Translations under genes and position numbers: made by a program
Part shown: positions 23,322 to 31,556 of the stretch, one piece after another
Layout: every line of letters begins with the position of its first letter
Position numbering within the stretch: the first letter of the stretch is position 1
Notes under the pieces: model-generated
What the model saw: only the letters and a program-made list of their open reading frames with translations
What the model was told of the DNA's origin: nothing
The model's database searches: none
DNA from: Bordetella genomosp. 5
GTDB lineage: Bacteria; Pseudomonadota; Gammaproteobacteria; Burkholderiales; Burkholderiaceae_B
NCBI RefSeq assembly: GCF_002261475.1
Contig: NZ_NEVN01000002.1
Coordinates: 248,001-312,000, forward strand
Length of the DNA: 64,000 nt
Reading direction: 5' to 3'

Positions 23322-25085
23322 TCAGCCCGCGGCCCAGGAGTCTTTCAGCGTGACGATGCGGTTCAGGACCGGGGCGCCGGGGCGCGAGTCCTTGGCGTCG
23401 ACGGTGAAGTAACCCAGCCGCTCGAATTGCCAGGTCGCGCCGGGTTCGGTCGCGATGTTGGGTTCGAGCCAGGCCTGGACGGTCTGCTTGGAGTTGGGGT
23501 TCAGGGCGGCCAGGAAGTCCTTGTCGCCGGCATCGGGATGCGGATCGGCGAACAGGCGGTCGTAGAGCTGGACCTGTGCCGGCACGGCGTGCGCCGCGCT
23601 GACCCAGGTGATGTTGCCCTTGACCTTGACGCTGTCGGCACCCGGCGTGCCGCTCTTTGTGTCGGGCAGATACTCGGCCTGCACCTCGACCACTTCGCCG
23701 GCGTCGTTCTTGGTGAAGCCGGTGCAGCGGACCACGTAGCCGTACTTCAGGCGCACGGTGTTGCCGGGGAACAGGCGGAAGTACTTCTTGGGCGGCTCCT
23801 CGCGGAAGTCGTCGCGTTCGATCCAGAGCTCGCGCGAGAACGGGAACTCGCGCACGCCCGCTTCCGGATCGTGCGGGTTGCGCGGCGCCGTGCACGATTC
23901 CGTCTGCCCCTCGGGGTAATTGGTGATGACGAGCTTGATCGGATCGAGCACTGCCACCGAGCGCGGCGTGCCGGGATCGAGGTCGTCGCGCACGGCCTGC
24001 TCGAGCAGGCTGTAGTCGATGCGCGAGTCCGACTTCGACACCGCGGTGCGGTCGCAGAACAGGCGGATCGACGAGGCCGTGTAGCCGCGGCGGCGCAGGC
24101 CGAACAGCGTGGGCATGCGCGGATCGTCCCAGCCATCGACGTGGCCGTCGCGCACCAGCTGCAGCAGCTTGCGCTTGCTGGTGACGATGTAGGTCAGGTT
24201 CAGGCGCGCGAATTCGTATTGGCGCGGCAGCGGCTGGGCCAGCTTGCCCAGCTCGGCCAGGCGCGCCAGGATCCAGTCGTAGAACGGACGCTGGTCTTCG
24301 AACTCCAGCGTGCAGATGCTGTGGGTGATGCCTTCGAGCGCATCCTCGACCGGGTGGGCCCAGCTATACATCGGGTAGATGCACCACTGATTGCCGGTGC
24401 GATGGTGTGTGGCGTGGCGCACGCGATACATGACCGGATCGCGCAGATTGATGTTGGGCGAGCCCATGTCGATCTTGGCGCGCAGCACCAGGCTGCCGTC
24501 GGGATGCTTGCCGTCGCGCATCTCGCGCAGCAGGGCGATCGATTCGGCCGGCGCGCGGTCACGCCAGGGCGAGTTGGTGCCCGGTTCGGTCAGGGTGCCG
24601 CGCTGGGCGCGGATCTCGTCGGCGCTCTGGGCATCGACGTAGGCGTGGCCGGCCTCGACCAGCGCTTCGGCAAACTCGTACATGTAGCCGAAGTAGTCGC
24701 TGGCGAAATACAGATTGTCGCGGCCATCGGCCTTCCAGTCGAAGCCGAGCCAGTGCACGGCCTCTTCGATGGCATCGACGTACTCCTGATCTTCCTTTTC
24801 GGGATTGGTGTCGTCGAAGCGCAGGTGGCAGACGCCGCCGTACTCCTTGGCCAGACCGAAGTTCACGCAGATGCTCTTGGCGTGACCGATGTGCAGGTAG
24901 CCATTGGGCTCGGGCGGGAAGCGGGTGCGGATACGGGCAGGGTCGGGTTCGCCCGCCGTCTGCACGCTGGCCGGGCCGGGCCGGCCGGCCCAGCGCTTGC
25001 CCTGGAAGCGGTTCGATTCCAGGTCTTCGTCGATGATGTTGCGCAGATAATTGCTGGCGGCAGGCGGCGTCGGGGCGTGGGTCAT
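23322..25085 (-). CDS. glnS: Glutaminyl-tRNA synthetase
   Basis: 587-residue class I aminoacyl-tRNA synthetase charging tRNA-Gln. The HIGH motif is in PNGYLHIGHAKS near residue 60, the KMSKS equivalent is VTSKRKL, and WDDPRMPTLFGLRRRGYT is GlnRS-specific. The C-terminal beta-barrel anticodon-binding domains follow from about residue 370. About 30 residues longer than E. coli GlnS, mainly at the N-terminus. Stands alone, divergent from the cyd-like pair with 116 bases between. Confidence 0.97.
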   Translation of the reverse strand: MTHAPTPPAASNYLRNIIDEDLESNRFQGKRWAGRPGPASVQTAGEPDPARIRTRFPPEPNGYLHIGHAKSICVNFGLAKEYGGVCHLRFDDTNPEKEDQEYVDAIEEAVHWLGFDWKADGRDNLYFASDYFGYMYEFAEALVEAGHAYVDAQSADEIRAQRGTLTEPGTNSPWRDRAPAESIALLREMRDGKHPDGSLVLRAKIDMGSPNINLRDPVMYRVRHATHHRTGNQWCIYPMYSWAHPVEDALEGITHSICTLEFEDQRPFYDWILARLAELGKLAQPLPRQYEFARLNLTYIVTSKRKLLQLVRDGHVDGWDDPRMPTLFGLRRRGYTASSIRLFCDRTAVSKSDSRIDYSLLEQAVRDDLDPGTPRSVAVLDPIKLVITNYPEGQTESCTAPRNPHDPEAGVREFPFSRELWIERDDFREEPPKKYFRLFPGNTVRLKYGYVVRCTGFTKNDAGEVVEVQAEYLPDTKSGTPGADSVKVKGNITWVSAAHAVPAQVQLYDRLFADPHPDAGDKDFLAALNPNSKQTVQAWLEPNIATEPGATWQFERLGYFTVDAKDSRPGAPVLNRIVTLKDSWAAG

Positions 25086-25201
25086 TCTGAAAGAATAGGA
25101 AAAAGCGGCGACAAAGCGTCAATTTTGCCACGTTCGGGCGGCGATGCCGTTGCAATCACGCCTCCCACGGGGGCGGAACAGGCTCTACACTACCGCCCAT
25201 C

Positions 25202-26542
25202 ATGAATATCGCCCCTCTCCTGCTGGCCCGAACCCAGTTCATGACCAGCCTGAGCTTCCTGGCCCTGTTCCTGGCCATTTCCCTGGCATTGGCCTGGTTT
25301 CTACTCTTTTTCAAGCTCCGGGCGCGCGTCAGCGGCCTCGCCGGCTGGACCGCCGCCTATCGGCTCTGGGTGCGGATATTCGCGCTGTCCTTCGTGCTCG
25401 CACTGGCGTTCGCCGTGCCGGTGCTGGTCCAGCTGGGCAGTCTCTGGCCCGGCCTGATGGACAAAATCGGCAATGTGGCCGGACCCCTGGTCGGCTTCGG
25501 CGTGCTGTCGGTCTTCGTGCTGAAGTCGTGTTTCCTGGGCGTCATGCTGTTCGGCCAGCGCCGGGTCTCCGATCTGGCGCACACCTTCGCCGTGTTCATG
25601 GTCGCCATCGGGCAGCTCGTGGCGCTGGGCTGGGTGCTGGCGCTGCAATCCTGGATGCAGACCCCCGACGGCGCGGCCCTGATCGACGGGCGTTATCAGG
25701 TCTACGACTGGCTCGAGGTGATCTTCAACCCCTCGTTCGGCTGGCGCATGGGCGCCACTGCGGTGGGCGCCGCGCTGGCGGCCGCCTTCCTGATGCTCGG
25801 CGTGCACGCCCTCCAGGCCCTGCGCCGGCCGCTCGACGACGGCGAGCGCAACGCGTTCAAGGCGGCCGTCGTGGTCGCGCTCGTGGCCTCGATCCTGCAA
25901 CTGCCGGTGGCGCTGGGCCTGCGCGACCTGACCGTGCGGCACCAGCCGGCCAAGGCGGCCGCGCTGGCCGGCTACTGGCACAGCGGCGGCAAGCCCGAAA
26001 TCACGATCTGGGGCTGGCCCGACGCGCAAAGCCAGTCGACCGCCGGTGCCTGGACCCTGCAGAACACCGGCGCGCGCTGGCTGGCGCGCGATCCCAATGG
26101 CATCTACATCGGGCTCGACAAATACTCCGGCATGCAGCCGCCCGTGGCGATGGTGTTCTGGTCGCTGCGCCTGGCCATCGTGCTGGGCGTCCTCATGGTG
26201 ATCGCCGCGCTCGTGAGCTTCATCGGCACGGCCCGGCGCGGCTTCGATCCCGCCGTCATGCCGCGCTGGTGGCTGCGCTTCCAGAGCGGCATGATGTTCG
26301 CCGGCGGTCTGGCCGTCATGGCGTCGTGGTGGGTCAGCCAGCTCGGCCTGCAGCCCTATATGGTCAACCGCACCATCACGCAGTCCGAGGTCCTGAGTCC
26401 GGCCACACCGGCCACGCTGGGCTATGGCGTGGCGGCGTGGGGGCTGCTCTATCTGATTTTGCTGGGCGCCTTTGTCGGCATGCTGTTTCATGCGGCGCGC
26501 TACGGCGTCGTGCCGGTGCGCAAGACGGGAGGTACGCCATGA
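25202..26542 (+). CDS. CydA-like protein (cytochrome bd subunit I family) lacking heme ligands
   Basis: 446-residue membrane protein aligning by eye along its whole length with cytochrome bd subunit I: LARTQF at residues 9-14, WMQTPDG, the short Q-loop region ending TIWGWPD, and the last helices. Against E. coli CydA the heme ligands are all replaced: His19 by Leu20, His186 by Ala, Met393 by Ala and Glu445 by Phe. The proton-path Glu99 and Glu107 appear as Phe and Lys, and Q-loop Glu257 as Ala, while Lys252 and His126 positions are kept. The protein may not be a terminal oxidase. No clear ribosome-binding site. Overlaps the cydB-like gene by ATGA. Confidence 0.85.
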   Translation: MNIAPLLLARTQFMTSLSFLALFLAISLALAWFLLFFKLRARVSGLAGWTAAYRLWVRIFALSFVLALAFAVPVLVQLGSLWPGLMDKIGNVAGPLVGFGVLSVFVLKSCFLGVMLFGQRRVSDLAHTFAVFMVAIGQLVALGWVLALQSWMQTPDGAALIDGRYQVYDWLEVIFNPSFGWRMGATAVGAALAAAFLMLGVHALQALRRPLDDGERNAFKAAVVVALVASILQLPVALGLRDLTVRHQPAKAAALAGYWHSGGKPEITIWGWPDAQSQSTAGAWTLQNTGARWLARDPNGIYIGLDKYSGMQPPVAMVFWSLRLAIVLGVLMVIAALVSFIGTARRGFDPAVMPRWWLRFQSGMMFAGGLAVMASWWVSQLGLQPYMVNRTITQSEVLSPATPATLGYGVAAWGLLYLILLGAFVGMLFHAARYGVVPVRKTGGTP

Positions 26543-27597
26543 TCGCCACCTTGGCCGCGTCGCTGGGCCTGGCCCCCGACGATCCGATGTTCTGGATGCC
26601 GATGGTGTTCATGGCATTGCTGTTGCTGCTGATCGCCGCCGGTATCGTGTTCGACGGCTTCGATCTGGGCGTGGGCATCCTGCTGCAGATCGCGCCGGCC
26701 GACGAGCGCGGCCGCATGATGGGCCTGTTGTCGCCCTGGCGCGATGCCAACGAGTTCTGGCCTTTGCTGGGCATGGGGCTGTTCGCCTCCGCGTTCCCGT
26801 TTGCCTGGGGCACCATCACCGGCAAGCTGGTCGGGCCGCTGATCGTGCTGACCTTGGGCATCGTGCTGCGCAGCGTGGCGTTCGAGTTCCGCATCCGCGC
26901 CCGTCACGAGCACAAGCCGCGCTGGATCTTCGGCTTCTGGATCGGATCGCTCCTGACCGCGATCGGGCAGGGGATGGTGCTCGGCCGTATCGCCACCGAC
27001 TACCAGAGCGACGCCGGCTATGGCTGGTTCTCGCTGTTCGTGGGGTTGTGCGCCGTGGCCGCGTATGCGCTGTTGGGTGCCTGCTGGCTCGTGATGCGGG
27101 TCGACGGCGATCTGCAGCGCCGTGCCGCCAACTGGGCGCGCCACTCGATCCGCTGGACGGCCGCGGGCATGGTGGCCATCGCGGTCACGCTCGGCCTGGC
27201 CAATGCCGGCATCTTCTTCAAGTGGAGCAACGCCGCGCATCTGGGCGCGGCCGCGGCGGTCTGGGCCTGCATGCTGCTCTGCTTCGTCTGCGCCGAGGTG
27301 TTCCTGGCGCGCGTGCGGACCAAGCCCGACAGCTTCAGCTGGATGCCGTTCGTGCTGTGCGTGGTGCTCTATGTGCTGATGCTGCTGGGGCTGGCGTACA
27401 GCTTCTTCCCGTATCTGATCCTCGACGACATGACCATCTGGGACGGCAGCGGCGCGCTGGGGTCCATGCGCCTGGTGCTGGCCGGCGTGGTGGTCGGTGT
27501 GCCGGTGGTGCTGATCTTCAATCTGCTTGCCTATCGCTCGGTGTTCGGCAAGGAGCGCCGCCCGGTGGCGCTGCTGCCGCCGCCTTCCGCCTCCTGA
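26539..27597 (+). CDS. CydB-like protein (cytochrome bd subunit II family)
   Basis: 352-residue protein with about eight to nine transmembrane segments. FDGFDLGVGIL near residue 37 and PWRDANEFWP near residue 70 correspond to the DGFDMGVG and WDGNQVW motifs of E. coli CydB, and DDMTIWDGSGALGSM to its periplasmic C-terminal loop. Start fixed by the ATGA overlap with the cydA-like stop. No CydX-like small ORF follows and no cydDC genes are in the window. With its partner it forms a two-subunit complex of unknown redox role. Confidence 0.87.
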   Translation: MIATLAASLGLAPDDPMFWMPMVFMALLLLLIAAGIVFDGFDLGVGILLQIAPADERGRMMGLLSPWRDANEFWPLLGMGLFASAFPFAWGTITGKLVGPLIVLTLGIVLRSVAFEFRIRARHEHKPRWIFGFWIGSLLTAIGQGMVLGRIATDYQSDAGYGWFSLFVGLCAVAAYALLGACWLVMRVDGDLQRRAANWARHSIRWTAAGMVAIAVTLGLANAGIFFKWSNAAHLGAAAAVWACMLLCFVCAEVFLARVRTKPDSFSWMPFVLCVVLYVLMLLGLAYSFFPYLILDDMTIWDGSGALGSMRLVLAGVVVGVPVVLIFNLLAYRSVFGKERRPVALLPPPSAS

Positions 27598-27633
27598 CGG
27601 GCGCGGCGGGACGGGATTCGCCGCAACACGAAA

Positions 27634-27657
27634 CAGGCCGCCCCTCGGGGCGGCCTG
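27634..27657. terminator. Hairpin between convergent cydB-like and histidine kinase genes
   Basis: CAGGCCGCCCC-TC-GGGGCGGCCTG, 11-bp perfect stem. A short T-rich stretch follows only on the minus strand, so it fits best as the end of the two-component operon, with possible action both ways. Confidence 0.6.
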
Positions 27658-27680
27658 CGTCATTTCGAGAAGGCGTTGGA

Positions 27681-29198
27681 TCAGGCTTGGGCGAGGGGCA
27701 GGCGGATGCGTACCAGCAGGCCGCCGCCCGTGTGATCGCCGAGCTCCAGTGTGCCGCCGTGGGCCCGCGCGATCGCGTCGGCCAGCGCCAGCCCCAGGCC
27801 CACATTGCCGGTGCGCGTGCGCGCGTCGTCGAGACGGGCGAAGGGCCGCAAGGCCTCGCTGCGGCGTTCCGGGCTGATGCCCGTGCCATGATCGCCCACT
27901 TCGAGCACGGCGTGGCTGCCGTCCTGGCTCAGGCTGACGTCGATGGGCGCGGCGCCGTGATGCAGCGCATTGCCGATCAGATTGTCGAGCAGGCGGCCCA
28001 GCGCCACCGCATCGCCCTGGATGTGCAGATTGGCGTCTTCGGGCGTGCGCAGGGTGACGGCGGTGTTGGTGCTCTGCCATGCGCCCACGCGGTCATGGAT
28101 CCAGTCGTTCAGGTCCAGCGGCGCGTAGCGGTAGGCGGCCGGATCGGTGCCCCGCACGAAGCCGATGAATTGATCGACCATGTGCTGCATGTCCTGCAGG
28201 TCTTTGCGCAGGCCTTCCTTGAGCACGGAGTCGTCGGCCATCTCGATGCGCAGCCACATGCGCGAGAGCGGCCCCTTCAGATCGTGCGGCAGGCCGGAGA
28301 GCAGGGTGCGGCGCACGGAGTCGGATTCGGCCAGCGCGTCGAGCATGGCATTGAAGCGCTCGCCCAGCGCGCGCGTCTCGTGCGGACCCGACGGCTCCAC
28401 GCGCTGCGGCTGCCCGGCGGCGAGCTGGTCGGCGGCCTGCGCCAGCCGCGTGAGCGGACGCGTGATGTGCCACGAGAAGCCCGCCGCCAGCAACAGCACC
28501 AGCCCCAGGCCGCCCAGCCAGAACGCCACCAGCGGCGACGAGACGGGCGGGTCCAGGCGCTCCAGCGGAATCACCAGCCATTCGCGCAGCAGCGGCGCGT
28601 CTTCGCTCGCCGGATTGGGCGCGAGCGAGATATAGATTTCGGCGCGCGGACCGCGCGAGAGCGCCACGCGCGTGCCGTCGTTCAGGCGGATGTTGAGCTC
28701 GCGCACCAGCCCGCGCAGATCGCGGCGCACGTCGTCGGGCTCGCCGTGAGGGTAGCGCGCGCGGCGCTGCGCCTCCATCTTGCGATAGGCCTCCATGCGC
28801 TGTTCGCGGTCGGCCGGGTCTTCGAACTCGTCTTCGCGCGGCTGCGGCGGGGGCGGCGGCGGCATGGCGTTGGGCATGAACCGATCGGCCGGCGGCAGAT
28901 TGAGGCGCTGCAGGCGCGCCTCGGCGGGCAGCATGCGCGACCACAGACGCCATTGGTTCTGCGAGGCGGCACGGACGAAGTCAGCGCGGTCTTCGGCCGG
29001 CACCTGGGCCAGGGCCGCGCGCAGCGTGCGGATCGTGGTGGCGATGTAGCCGATCGCCACCTCTTCCATGAACTTCTGGCGGAAGTACGACACGGTGCCC
29101 AGCGTGGCGGCCTGCGCCAGCAGTACCGAGCCCAGCACGAGCAGGATGAGCCTGACGCGCAGCGAGTGCGGCATCAGTCGGCCGAAAGGCAGCTTCAT
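27681..29198 (-). CDS. Sensor histidine kinase of an OmpR-class two-component system
   Basis: 505-residue inner-membrane kinase. First transmembrane helix at about residues 15-37, a periplasmic domain of roughly 190 residues with a PPPPPP run near residue 115 and an Arg/Glu-rich stretch, a second helix near 225-245, then HAMP, H-box and ATPase domains. The H-box reads LPHDLKGPLSR rather than SHELRTPL. N-box LDNLIGNALHHG, G1 VGDHGTGI and G2 NVGLGLALADAI are intact. It overlaps the regulator gene by four bases. RisS/EnvZ-like in architecture; the signal is unknown. Confidence 0.9.
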   Translation of the reverse strand: MKLPFGRLMPHSLRVRLILLVLGSVLLAQAATLGTVSYFRQKFMEEVAIGYIATTIRTLRAALAQVPAEDRADFVRAASQNQWRLWSRMLPAEARLQRLNLPPADRFMPNAMPPPPPPQPREDEFEDPADREQRMEAYRKMEAQRRARYPHGEPDDVRRDLRGLVRELNIRLNDGTRVALSRGPRAEIYISLAPNPASEDAPLLREWLVIPLERLDPPVSSPLVAFWLGGLGLVLLLAAGFSWHITRPLTRLAQAADQLAAGQPQRVEPSGPHETRALGERFNAMLDALAESDSVRRTLLSGLPHDLKGPLSRMWLRIEMADDSVLKEGLRKDLQDMQHMVDQFIGFVRGTDPAAYRYAPLDLNDWIHDRVGAWQSTNTAVTLRTPEDANLHIQGDAVALGRLLDNLIGNALHHGAAPIDVSLSQDGSHAVLEVGDHGTGISPERRSEALRPFARLDDARTRTGNVGLGLALADAIARAHGGTLELGDHTGGGLLVRIRLPLAQA

Positions 29199-29896
29199 GG
29201 CGCGAAGCGGTAGCCGATGCCCCAGACGGTCTGGATCCAGCGGGGTTGTTTGGGATCTTCTTCGATGGCGCGCCGCAGCCGCAGGATCGCGATGTCGATG
29301 GCGCGGTCATTGCGCTCGCCGCTGTCGTCGTCGCGCGCCAGGGCCAGCAGACGCTCGCGCGACAGCGGCTTGCCCGCGTTGCGCACCAGCGCTTCGAGCA
29401 GGTTGATCTCGCCGCCGGTGAGCTTGACCACGACGCCTTCGCGCATCAACTGGCGCGTGGTCGGATCGAACACGAAGGGGCCGAAGGACACCGGCGCGTC
29501 TTTCGTGAGCGCGGAGGGGCCGCGCTTGCGTCGCAGCACGGCCTCGATGCGGGCGAGCAGCTCGCGCGGATCGAAGGGCTTGCCGAGGTAGTCGTCTGCG
29601 CCGGCCTCGAGACCGATGATGCGGTCCACGGCCTCGTCGCGCGCGGTCAGCAGGATGACGGGCAGGTCCTCGCCCTGTTCGCGCAGGCGGCGACAGGCAT
29701 CGGCGCCATCGCCACCGGGAAGCATGCGGTCGAGCACCAGGAGATCGGGCGCATAGCGCGTGATGCGGGCGGCCAGATCGCTGGCATCGGGCGCGAGCAG
29801 CGTGTCGTAGCCGTGGCGATTGAGGTAATCGGCCAGCAATTGGCGCAGGGCGGGGTCATCGTCGACCACCAACAGCTTGGTATGCGGATTTTCCAT
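29195..29896 (-). CDS. OmpR-family response regulator
   Basis: 233-residue regulator: receiver domain with DDD at about residues 11-13, phosphoacceptor Asp in LVLDRMLPG near 56, Thr in LLTARDE and Lys in GKPFDP; C-terminal winged-helix domain ending QTVWGIGYRFAP. ATG 29896 is chosen because MENPHTKLLVVDDD is the natural receiver start; the open frame extends 12 codons further. First gene of the pair with the downstream kinase, stop overlapping its ATG. Possibly the RisA-type regulator of this family, but targets cannot be read from the window. Confidence 0.92.
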   Translation of the reverse strand: MENPHTKLLVVDDDPALRQLLADYLNRHGYDTLLAPDASDLAARITRYAPDLLVLDRMLPGGDGADACRRLREQGEDLPVILLTARDEAVDRIIGLEAGADDYLGKPFDPRELLARIEAVLRRKRGPSALTKDAPVSFGPFVFDPTTRQLMREGVVVKLTGGEINLLEALVRNAGKPLSRERLLALARDDDSGERNDRAIDIAILRLRRAIEEDPKQPRWIQTVWGIGYRFAP

Positions 29897-30113
29897 GGGT
29901 GCCAGTGTGGTGCCCGGGCTGTTTGCGGGCAAGGGGCAAGAAATCGATTGAAAAATATAACCGTTGCAACTCGCCCGCGCTGGCGGCGGGCGCCTGAGCT
30001 TAGAATAGCCGGCTCGCGCCGCGGCCCCCGCGATCCTGGCGAGACCTCCCGTGGTGTTTTTTTAAGATCGTTTACAGATGTGCCGTCCCGGACTTTTTAA
30101 ACTGGTTCGCGTT

Positions 30114-31556
30114 ATGGTTGCTCGCGAACGTGTAGACAAGCGGGTGTCGCGCACCATTCTGGGAACGGTCCTCGCCGCGAATATGGCGTTGGCCGCCTGC
30201 GCCTCCACTGACGCCCCGCCCGATGCTTCCCCCCCGGCAACGCCCTCGGCCACCGCCACGCAGACTCCGTCCGCGCCGGCCGCTGCGGCGCAGCCGCGTC
30301 AGACCGTTCGTACGGCGGCCGCCAACGACATTGCCCGCTACGGCATCGGCGTGCTGTCACCCGTGCAGCCGCAGCGCGTGACCCCGCCGTCCGAGATCGA
30401 CGCCTATGCGCTCCCGCCGGAGGCCGACCCGTGCGCCGGGCTGGTGTCGACGGCCGAAGCCGGCCTGCCCGAAGACCCGCACACCGGTCCCGCGCCGGGC
30501 GAGGGGCTCCAGCCCCAGACCACCCCGCCGCTCGGCCTCGACGCGGGGGCGGCGGCGCCCGACGCCGGCGTGGCCGCCAATCCCGACGTGCTGTGCGCCT
30601 CGCCCTATCCCGACTACCCGGTGAGCCAGAGCAGCGCCGCCTACTCCTTCGATCTGGAGGCCGCGGAACTGGTCGCGTCGCGGCCGGTGGGCGGCACGGG
30701 CATCGCCCCGCAGCGCCGCCGCTGGTTCTCCGCCGTCAGTTCGGTGCCCACCACGTCTTATACCGGTCAAAATTGGCGCTACACGCCCTCGGTCGGCGCG
30801 GGGCCGTCGGTCGGCGTGGGTAATGTCACCAGCCTGGCGCCCTCCTGGGGCAACAGCGCGCCCATCGGAGGCATCCAGTTTTCCGAGCGCGCCACCGGGT
30901 CCGCGCTCAAGCCCGGCGAGTTCGGCTATGCCTCGTCGCTGGGCCGTCTGAACCTGATGGATCCGGCCGCCACCTCCGGCGCGGTGGACTACGGCGCCTC
31001 GGCGGGCAGCAGCATGGTGCGCTACGGCCTGACCACCGATCTGACCGTCGAGGGCCAGCTGCAGACGGCGCCGCAACTCACCACCCGCGGCTTCGGCACG
31101 ACATACCGTGCGGGCGACATCGGCACCTTCCAGGCCGGCGCCACGCAGAGCACGTTCGACGCGGTCAACGCCTGGCGTTACCGGTTCGGCTACTCGGTCA
31201 ACATGGCCGACGCCGTCACCCTCGGCGTGAGCGGCGAAGACATCGGCGCCGGCTACAACGACCTCTCGTCCTATAACAACGGCGGCTCCAACGCCCGGCA
31301 ACTGCGCAGCACCTTCTCGGCCGGCGTGCCGATCTCGGGGTGGGGCACGCTGAGCGGCACCTACTCGTCGGGCGTCACGGCCAGCAGCGACCCCAATGAG
31401 CGCCGGGTGGGTCTGGAGCAGAGCATGATGCTCGCGCCCAAGGTGCGCTTCGCCCTCGGGGCAGATCGCGATCTGGTCTCGGGCGACTACGAATGGCGGG
31501 CCCGCCTGTCCATGCCCGTCGACGCCTTCATGCGCGGCCGCTGGCTGGGGTTCTGA
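30114..31556 (+). CDS. Predicted lipoprotein with a Pro/Ala-rich region and beta-rich C-terminus, function unknown
   Basis: 480-residue secreted protein. Basic N-terminus, hydrophobic core and lipobox LAAC with Cys29. Residues 30-75 are Pro/Ala/Thr-rich, residues 100-190 hold several Cys (PEADPCAG, VLCASPYPDYP) and Pro, and from about 270 there are alternating hydrophobic strands rich in Gly/Ser/Thr (RYGLTTDLTVEGQLQ, YRFGYSVNMADAVTLGVSG) ending in WLGF, reminiscent of usher or other outer-membrane barrels. An in-frame ATG at 30078 adds 12 residues. It stands alone upstream of recQ. I assign no function. Confidence 0.75.
   Translation: MVARERVDKRVSRTILGTVLAANMALAACASTDAPPDASPPATPSATATQTPSAPAAAAQPRQTVRTAAANDIARYGIGVLSPVQPQRVTPPSEIDAYALPPEADPCAGLVSTAEAGLPEDPHTGPAPGEGLQPQTTPPLGLDAGAAAPDAGVAANPDVLCASPYPDYPVSQSSAAYSFDLEAAELVASRPVGGTGIAPQRRRWFSAVSSVPTTSYTGQNWRYTPSVGAGPSVGVGNVTSLAPSWGNSAPIGGIQFSERATGSALKPGEFGYASSLGRLNLMDPAATSGAVDYGASAGSSMVRYGLTTDLTVEGQLQTAPQLTTRGFGTTYRAGDIGTFQAGATQSTFDAVNAWRYRFGYSVNMADAVTLGVSGEDIGAGYNDLSSYNNGGSNARQLRSTFSAGVPISGWGTLSGTYSSGVTASSDPNERRVGLEQSMMLAPKVRFALGADRDLVSGDYEWRARLSMPVDAFMRGRWLGF

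Follow-up and report, generated by a model that had tools for sequence, protein, structure and literature searches.

A cytochrome bd-type gene pair of Bordetella and its relatives that has lost its heme-holding residues and seems to have been retained for another membrane role

What might a cytochrome bd be kept for once the residues that hold its hemes are gone? The question is raised by two genes in a stretch of 64,000 nucleotides from Bordetella genomosp. 5 (contig NZ_NEVN01000002.1, positions 248,001 to 312,000 of the forward strand), hereafter called the window. The cydA-like gene runs on the plus strand from an ATG at 25202 to a stop at 26542 (25202..26542, 446 aa), and the cydB-like gene follows on the same strand from an ATG at 26539 to a stop at 27597 (26539..27597, 352 aa); we call their products CydA* and CydB*, and the complex CydA*B*. 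All canonical heme ligands of CydA* are replaced, and CydA*B*, which is annotated as cytochrome bd in Bordetella and its relatives, has lost the residues that hold hemes and seems to have been retained for another job in the membrane.

Ligand residues in the window and across the family

By homology both subunits belong to cytochrome bd (CydAB): CydA* matched PF01654 (Cyt_bd_oxida_I) with an E-value of 1.4e-96 and CydB* matched PF02322 (Cyt_bd_oxida_II) with an E-value of 2.2e-57 in Pfam. The NCBIfam equivalogs for bd oxidases matched the pair below their cut-offs, and these scores are uninformative for CydA* because the one other PF01654 match of this genome, a canonical CydA adjoined by cydB, misses the cut-offs as well. 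The reading frames were placed as in the original prediction, which had been made from the letters of the window; so were the translational coupling of the pair, with the two frames overlapping in ATGA, and the motifs RTQF, WMQTPDG, DGFDLGVG and WRDAN. The pair resembles CioAB of the cyanide-insensitive oxidase (CIO) type in its cydA-cydB order, in the full-length homology of both proteins and in a short Q loop, visible as a gap relative to E. coli CydA in the profile alignment.

The residues of CydA* were placed by MAFFT against E. coli CydA, whose numbering is used for the ancestral positions, and by a separate profile-profile alignment with hhalign, in which a profile of 34 rows of the ligand-poor clade described below was set against 16 bd-I and CIO rows. 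We take H19, E99, E107, H186, E257, M393 and E445 to be the ligand and site residues of CydA. At the heme b558 positions H186 and M393, MAFFT placed Ala185 and Ala325, and at the heme b595/d positions H19, E99 and E445 it placed Leu20, Gly100 and Gln380. The quinol site kept K252 (Lys251 here) and had Ala256 in place of E257, and R448 was replaced by Leu; R9 and R391 were retained. Along the proton path of E107A, K57A, K109B and D58B, where the final letter gives the subunit, the residues were Lys, Arg, Arg and Asp, so that D58B alone was kept; the Lys108 codon at the E107 position lies at 25523..25525 on the plus strand. The hhalign columns reproduced the MAFFT ligand columns, and none of the replacements at H19, E99, E107, H186, E257, M393 and E445 was a His, Met or Glu. 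Glu99, Glu445, His186, Met393 and Asp58B are named in the relevant sections of PMC6853902 and PMC5322542. The profile alignment that the original prediction had proposed as a check thus upheld its claim that all canonical heme ligands had disappeared from CydA, together with its Leu20 at H19, Lys at E107, Ala at H186, E257 and M393, and the conserved Arg before the Met393 position. Its Phe at E99 and E445 gave way to Gly100 and Gln380.

Ligand loss is wider than the original prediction supposed, being spread across one family. A search with P0001 covered 250 genomes of the GTDB family, an even sample of a larger group, and found matches in 239. The search score does not separate the ligand-free proteins from true CIO, and residues were therefore read from individual sequences for some of the matches listed. 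The set read comprised 263 CydA sequences (228 distinct). A core loss, with E107 changed to Lys or Arg and neither E99 nor H186 present, occurred in 138 of the 228 distinct sequences, including two that end before H19, and the full set of H19, H186, M393, E445, E99 and E107 in the other 90, among them the E. coli protein and the window genome's canonical CydA. The E107 position was Lys or Arg and H186 was absent in all 138; M393 was retained in 11, and some of the 138 retain H19, M393 or E445. Since 137 other distinct sequences share it, including those of named Bordetella and Achromobacter genomes, the core loss is not an assembly artefact of the window genome. Of 43 loci from named genomes, 38 (Bordetella and Achromobacter) were ligand-poor and 5 were CIO.

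The locus was found in 35 of the 43 genus groups of this GTDB family (coded g), Bordetella and Achromobacter among them. This tally by genus codes includes the eroded loci of g15, g33 and g40, with g15 recognised by its CydB* signature instead of its glnS neighbour, and g28 recognised from two pieces of contig. For the eight groups tallied without the locus, one genome each of g12, g13, g23, g24, g35 and g43 was examined, and g8 and g39 were covered by the initial family search only. Outside the family, all 24 loci from a sample of the order (300 genomes) and all 55 loci from samples of the class (369 genomes) and phylum (398 genomes) had the full ligand set. These made 74 distinct sequences, five places being common to both sets, and all 74 kept every ligand; they were the best hits only. 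Among the samples searched, the ligand-poor clade was found solely in one GTDB family.

Single origin, constraint and newly fixed residues

We built a tree from an alignment of 101 rows, of which 69 belonged to the clade, 30 to CIO and 2 to bd-I; eight ligand and related columns had been excluded. The 69 dereplicated ligand-poor rows formed a single clade with a stem of 0.77 and full support (100/100, ultrafast bootstrap and SH-like approximate likelihood ratio test, UFBoot/SH-aLRT). The clade nests inside the CIO type with the short Q loop and is sister to the CIO protein L094 of a close relative (g16), also at 100/100. The fewest changes required on the tree were one each for E99, E107, H186 and E257, three for H19, three for E445 (counting E or D), four for R448 and six for M393. 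This pattern indicates that the proton and quinol residues and one heme b558 residue were lost first, on one branch, and that the other ligands decayed later and repeatedly. The later and repeated loss of H19, E445 and M393 accounts for the ligands that two basal lineages still keep: L083 (genome G008, group g9) retains H19, M393, E445 and R448, and in g27 nine of ten tree rows have H19 and nine of ten have E or D at E445. The basal branching order (L083, g27, rest) was weakly supported (64/71). L083 and the g27 proteins L092, L099, L221, L230, L238, L239, L241, L246 and L251 still have H19 and, in most cases, E or D at E445, and are devoid of H186, E99 and E107; they are possibly one- or two-heme relatives of bd.

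The clade is under purifying selection by these sequence comparisons, and the usual constraint on the two subunits is inverted, CydB* evolving more slowly than CydA*. For cydA* only, dN/dS by NG86 was 0.10-0.31 in 12 pairs. Of the 228 sequences, 224 could be matched with a cydB partner (137 clade, 87 others). The CydB proteins resembled each other more closely than the CydA proteins did in 9011 of 9284 clade pairs, compared with 16 of 3737 CIO/bd-I pairs; the pairs are non-independent, and those with a mean identity outside 0.30-0.97 (32 clade, 4 CIO/bd-I) were omitted. The ratio of CydB to CydA tree length was 0.59 in the clade (68 rows) versus 1.41 in CIO (73 rows). It ranged over 0.53-0.73 versus 1.23-1.55 in 20 column resamplings, and over 0.55-0.61 versus 1.37-1.58 in ten random subsets of 30 rows. 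In g40, the CydA* of L282 is a frame of 393 aa devoid of the Q loop, beside a CydB* that is still recognisable; in g33 (L293) and g15 (L284), CydA* is hardly recognisable and CydB* was still found. Arg205, Asn222 and Trp242 of CydB* are kept in g15, g32, g33 and g40, and Trp206 is changed in g15 and g40.

Both subunits have also gained fixed residues. E107A is presumably a residue of the proton path. In E. coli bd-I, a cytosolic chain of water for protons leads from D119A through K57A, K109B, D105B and Y379B to D58B (structural sections of PMC6853902). Across the same 68 clade rows, D119A has become Arg in 65, K57A Arg in 68, K109B Arg in 68, D105B Glu in 68, W57B Arg in 67 (one gap) and E107A Lys in 66 and Arg in 2, with D58B still Asp in 67 (one gap). 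The 73 CIO rows have mixed residues at D119A (Arg in 10), Lys in 66 and Arg in 7 at K57A, Lys in 72 at K109B, Asp in 54 and Glu in 19 at D105B, and Asp at D58B, Trp at W57B and Glu at E107A in all 73. Seventeen CIO rows with a GC content above 0.62 keep Lys (17 at 120B, 16 at 187B and 16 at 58A), and the change from Lys to Arg is therefore not accounted for by base composition alone, which these high-GC controls do not support as the sole cause. From these replacements we infer an Arg/Lys-rich site at the subunit interface, derived from the former proton inlet.

R58A, K/R108A, R68B, R120B, R187B, R205B, W206B and D302B are fixed in 67 or 68 of the 68 clade rows, and W67, R68, R205, W206, N222 and W242 are newly fixed in CydB*. 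The Arg68 codon (26740..26742, plus strand) lies at the position of E. coli CydB W57, beside the conserved D58 (Asp69 here), and the Arg205-Trp206 codons (27151..27156, plus strand) are fixed in 68 of 68 clade rows and variable in CIO. Cys110 (57 of 68 rows; Val in 8) and His430 (59 of 68, Tyr in 8; 12 of 73 in CIO) are newly conserved in CydA*, and Cys171, Met186 and Met254 of CydB* are conserved either newly or more strongly than in CIO. Position 144 of CydB* is Gln in CIO and in the window and His in 53 of the 68 clade rows.

Genomic context and the published cydAB3 locus

The divergent neighbour glnS (23322..25085, minus strand), which lies outside the operon, adjoins cydA* in 132 of 137 clade loci; for the remaining five, at most 100 bases are available upstream. 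A stricter recount by open-frame ends gave 127, the five lost having a frame that reaches the locus edge or overlaps glnS. This constant position rules out both an oddity of the window and a recent horizontal acquisition. Just upstream of cydA*, a start-site element (25181..25204, plus strand) holds a -10-like TACACT at a distance of 10 bases from the ATG. In 119 of 132 clade loci and in none of 39 CIO loci, a TANACT box precedes the ATG by 8-12 bases, a count requiring an aligned ATG with 40 bases upstream, for which 5 clade and 50 CIO loci were skipped; two of the 13 misses carry the box at 7 bases. The cydA* mRNA may accordingly be near-leaderless. A sigma-70 scan of 25000-27760 detected no promoter, so the -10-like reading is drawn from conservation alone. 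The element is present in a single copy in the window genome within 3 mismatches, which rules out a shared promoter regulon.

Downstream, a GC-rich inverted repeat (27633..27658, minus strand) that is terminator-like lies between cydB* and a convergent gene for a HAMP histidine kinase (27681..29198, minus strand); the window contained 3 such sites where 1.8 were expected. An OmpR-type response regulator follows (29195..29932, minus strand). Beyond it, a frame of 492 aa at 30078-31553 (plus strand) has no Pfam match at an E-value of 0.001, and related frames lie near two-component genes in many clade loci.

The order regulator-kinase-cydB-cydA in the window equals that of BP3222, BP3223 (RisK) and BP3224-3225 in B. 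pertussis, the kinase being syntenic with risK (BP3223) and the regulator with BP3222. By gene order and numbering, and not by sequence, the pair is very probably orthologous to BP3224-3225 and to cydAB3 (BB4012-4011) of B. bronchiseptica. The published deletion length of cydAB3 is what one would expect of a cydA some 1340 bases long that overlaps cydB, as in the window (PMC11257404). According to the sections concerned, BP3223 encodes RisK, is transcribed together with the OmpR-like BP3222 and probably supplies the kinase that acts on RisA in B. pertussis (PMC5020355), and the counterpart of BP3224 is BB4011, their C/G tracts being 9 and 6 long respectively (PMC1891110).

McKay et al. (2024) listed cydAB3 as a predicted high-affinity bd oxidase, and the sections on these loci report that a single cyd3 deletion grew as the wild type, with no phenotype in growth or mouse-persistence tests, that a B. 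bronchiseptica strain with cyd3 only could not be made, and that cydAB3 transcripts were at the level of flaA, with no change reported in 5% O2 or 5% CO2 and no naming of the locus for 2% O2 (PMC11257404). A strain with only the three loci conserved in B. pertussis grew poorly in 5% CO2 and slightly poorly in 2% O2, and was normal in 5% O2 plus 5% CO2; cyd3 is one of five candidate loci for the 5% CO2 defect, for which that section shows no single-deletion test (PMC11257404). A 2026 review refers to CydAB3 as bd-type, in a passage that describes such oxidases as annotated computationally (PMC13367067). The passages on these genes in PMC11257404, PMC13367067, PMC5020355 and PMC1891110 do not mention missing ligands, the classification of CIO subtypes by Degli Esposti (2015) calls the ligands invariant in its relevant part (PMC5322542), and none of the open-licence papers listed in the literature searches showed heme-free bd homologues.

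Compared with CioAB, most clade members have no heme ligands, and E99, E107 and E257 are lost; the clade differs further in its newly fixed residues in both subunits and in its inverted subunit constraint. The OR-N and OR-C families and CydAA' were reportedly described by Murali et al. (2021), a work cited in PMC10839748, as parts of a bd superfamily differing in quinol and heme sites, and are said to have been proposed as O2 reductases. CydAA' pairs two CydA paralogues. The clade, by contrast, retains CydB (in 137 of 137 loci), has lost O2-site residues and falls within the CIO group in the tree, which covered clade, CIO and bd-I rows.

Possible roles and their weighing

The following course of events would accommodate these observations. 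A CIO-type cydAB operon with the short Q loop would have been duplicated in or before the family ancestor; the copy beside glnS lost E257 (quinol), H186 (heme b558), Glu99 and Glu107 (proton path) on one stem branch, and fixed its new residues. The product would be a bd-fold heterodimer with no usable heme b558 or d and unable to reduce O2. It might now work through CydB*, the Arg/Lys-rich former inlet binding, gating or passing an anionic ligand, or being locked by salt bridges, instead of conducting protons. Bicarbonate is a candidate anion because of the poor growth in 5% CO2 of the three-locus B. bronchiseptica strain mentioned above, from which cyd3 and four further loci are missing (PMC11257404). 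From sequence, the clade is a real, old, vertically inherited and selected pseudo-oxidase, very probably incapable of O2 reduction, and it is highly probable that CydA*B* is not a terminal oxidase. We lean somewhat towards the overall explanation of a heme-poor non-oxidase complex centred on CydB, in favour of which we also count three genomes (G006, G042 and G128, 99% complete) whose clade CydA is the sole PF01654 match, together with the failure to obtain a cyd3-only strain (strain-construction part of PMC11257404). An anionic-ligand role of CydB* is our best guess, and the particular anionic-site mechanism is a tentative proposal that may well be wrong. A stricter version, in which the oxidase was converted once into a cofactor-free complex worked by CydB* with its proton inlet turned into an Arg/Lys-lined anion path, we regard as distinctly unlikely. 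The original prediction of a heme-poor membrane complex derived from bd and given another role fits the single origin of the loss, the fixed residues, the purifying selection, the start-site element and the inverted constraint. Its "heme-poor" stands, and its alternative "heme-free" is not established, the side-chain volumes showing no filling of the heme pockets and two basal lineages keeping H19.

Several observations weigh against the explanation that we prefer. Some of the changed inlet residues already occur in CIO: Arg at K57A in the 7 rows mentioned includes the nearest CIO, L094, and also L095, Glu at D105B is found in 19 of 73, and D119A is other than Asp in most. Arg391 is invariant in 68 of 68 clade rows, and the H19 of the two basal lineages, mostly with E/D at E445, is joined by a Glu at the E445 position in a g32 protein. 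Bigger side chains do not fill the heme pockets in a comparison of side-chain volumes, where the net change was +174 cubic Angstrom for the 60 conserved columns that changed and -1064 for 429 columns; the explanation therefore has to suppose cavities, repacking or a different ligand. Cys110 and His430 of CydA* with Cys171, Met186 and Met254 of CydB* may form a metal site. Among the eroded relatives, g33 has Glu at the E107 position and Gln at Arg68B, g15 has Gln at the E107 position, and D58B is other than Asp in g15, g33 and g40; the g32 alignment is poor around Arg68B. In the genomes examined from g12, g24 and g43, glnS has no such locus beside it. Of 14 B. pertussis strains, 7 carry a broken cydB3, and the low transcription of cyd3 also explains the cyd3-only failure (sections on cydAB3 in PMC11257404).

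The unfilled cavities would suit a carrier, sensor or storage protein that holds a porphyrin, quinone or large hydrophobic ligand in the old cofactor cavities with no axial ligation, as would the invariant Arg391 and the Lys or Arg at the K252 position in 58 of 68 rows. E257, however, is lost in 68 of 68 rows (Asp in a partial g28 sequence), R9 and R448 are frequently lost, and the cavity-holding CydA* evolves faster and has eroded severely in g15, g33 and g40, three groups in which CydB* can still be recognised; we consider this role unlikely. The same erosion could signal a decaying relic devoid of present function, as could the broken B. pertussis copies and the lack of phenotype of the single deletion (both PMC11257404, in the sections cited), and the junction of glnS with the kinase gene (g43, g24) or recQ (g12) where the locus is missing, in one genome each. 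Against decay stand the dN/dS values, the presence of the locus in 35 of 43 genus groups, the fixed new residues, the conserved start-site element and the strongly constrained CydB*, and a relic is decidedly unlikely; a pseudogene as the principal explanation was set aside given dN/dS and conservation.

CydA*B* might otherwise serve another bd oxidase of the same cell as a non-catalytic partner or as an assembly or regulatory subunit. The window genome has canonical cydAB elsewhere, and 36 of 40 chosen genomes have a clade CydA together with one or more further PF01654 matches, fragments included. G006, G042 and G128, with no other PF01654 match, rule out an obligate partnership, and we judge partnership in general to be very unlikely. 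The idea that CydA*B* is still an oxidase, with hemes on Lys108, Cys110, His127 or His430 of CydA* or on sites in CydB*, draws on the new conservation of K/R108, Cys110 and His430 and on the conservation of H127. His127 is no replacement ligand, since it is equally conserved in CIO (73 of 73). Neither His430 nor Cys110 is invariant, no His of CydB* reaches 85% among 58 ligand-poor rows, and the quinol residue Glu257 and the proton residue Glu107 are gone, which leaves an oxidase extremely unlikely.

If BB4012 has the same residues as its relatives, the eight "cytochrome oxidase" loci published for B. bronchiseptica include one that is no oxidase, and the same misassignment would apply to genomes of the family annotated from PF01654 alone. 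The function is directly testable, as a cyd3 deletion strain already exists. The clade holds living intermediates from a three-heme oxidase to a ligand-free protein. CydB is usually regarded as a scaffold, and the clade suggests that it can bear a function of its own.
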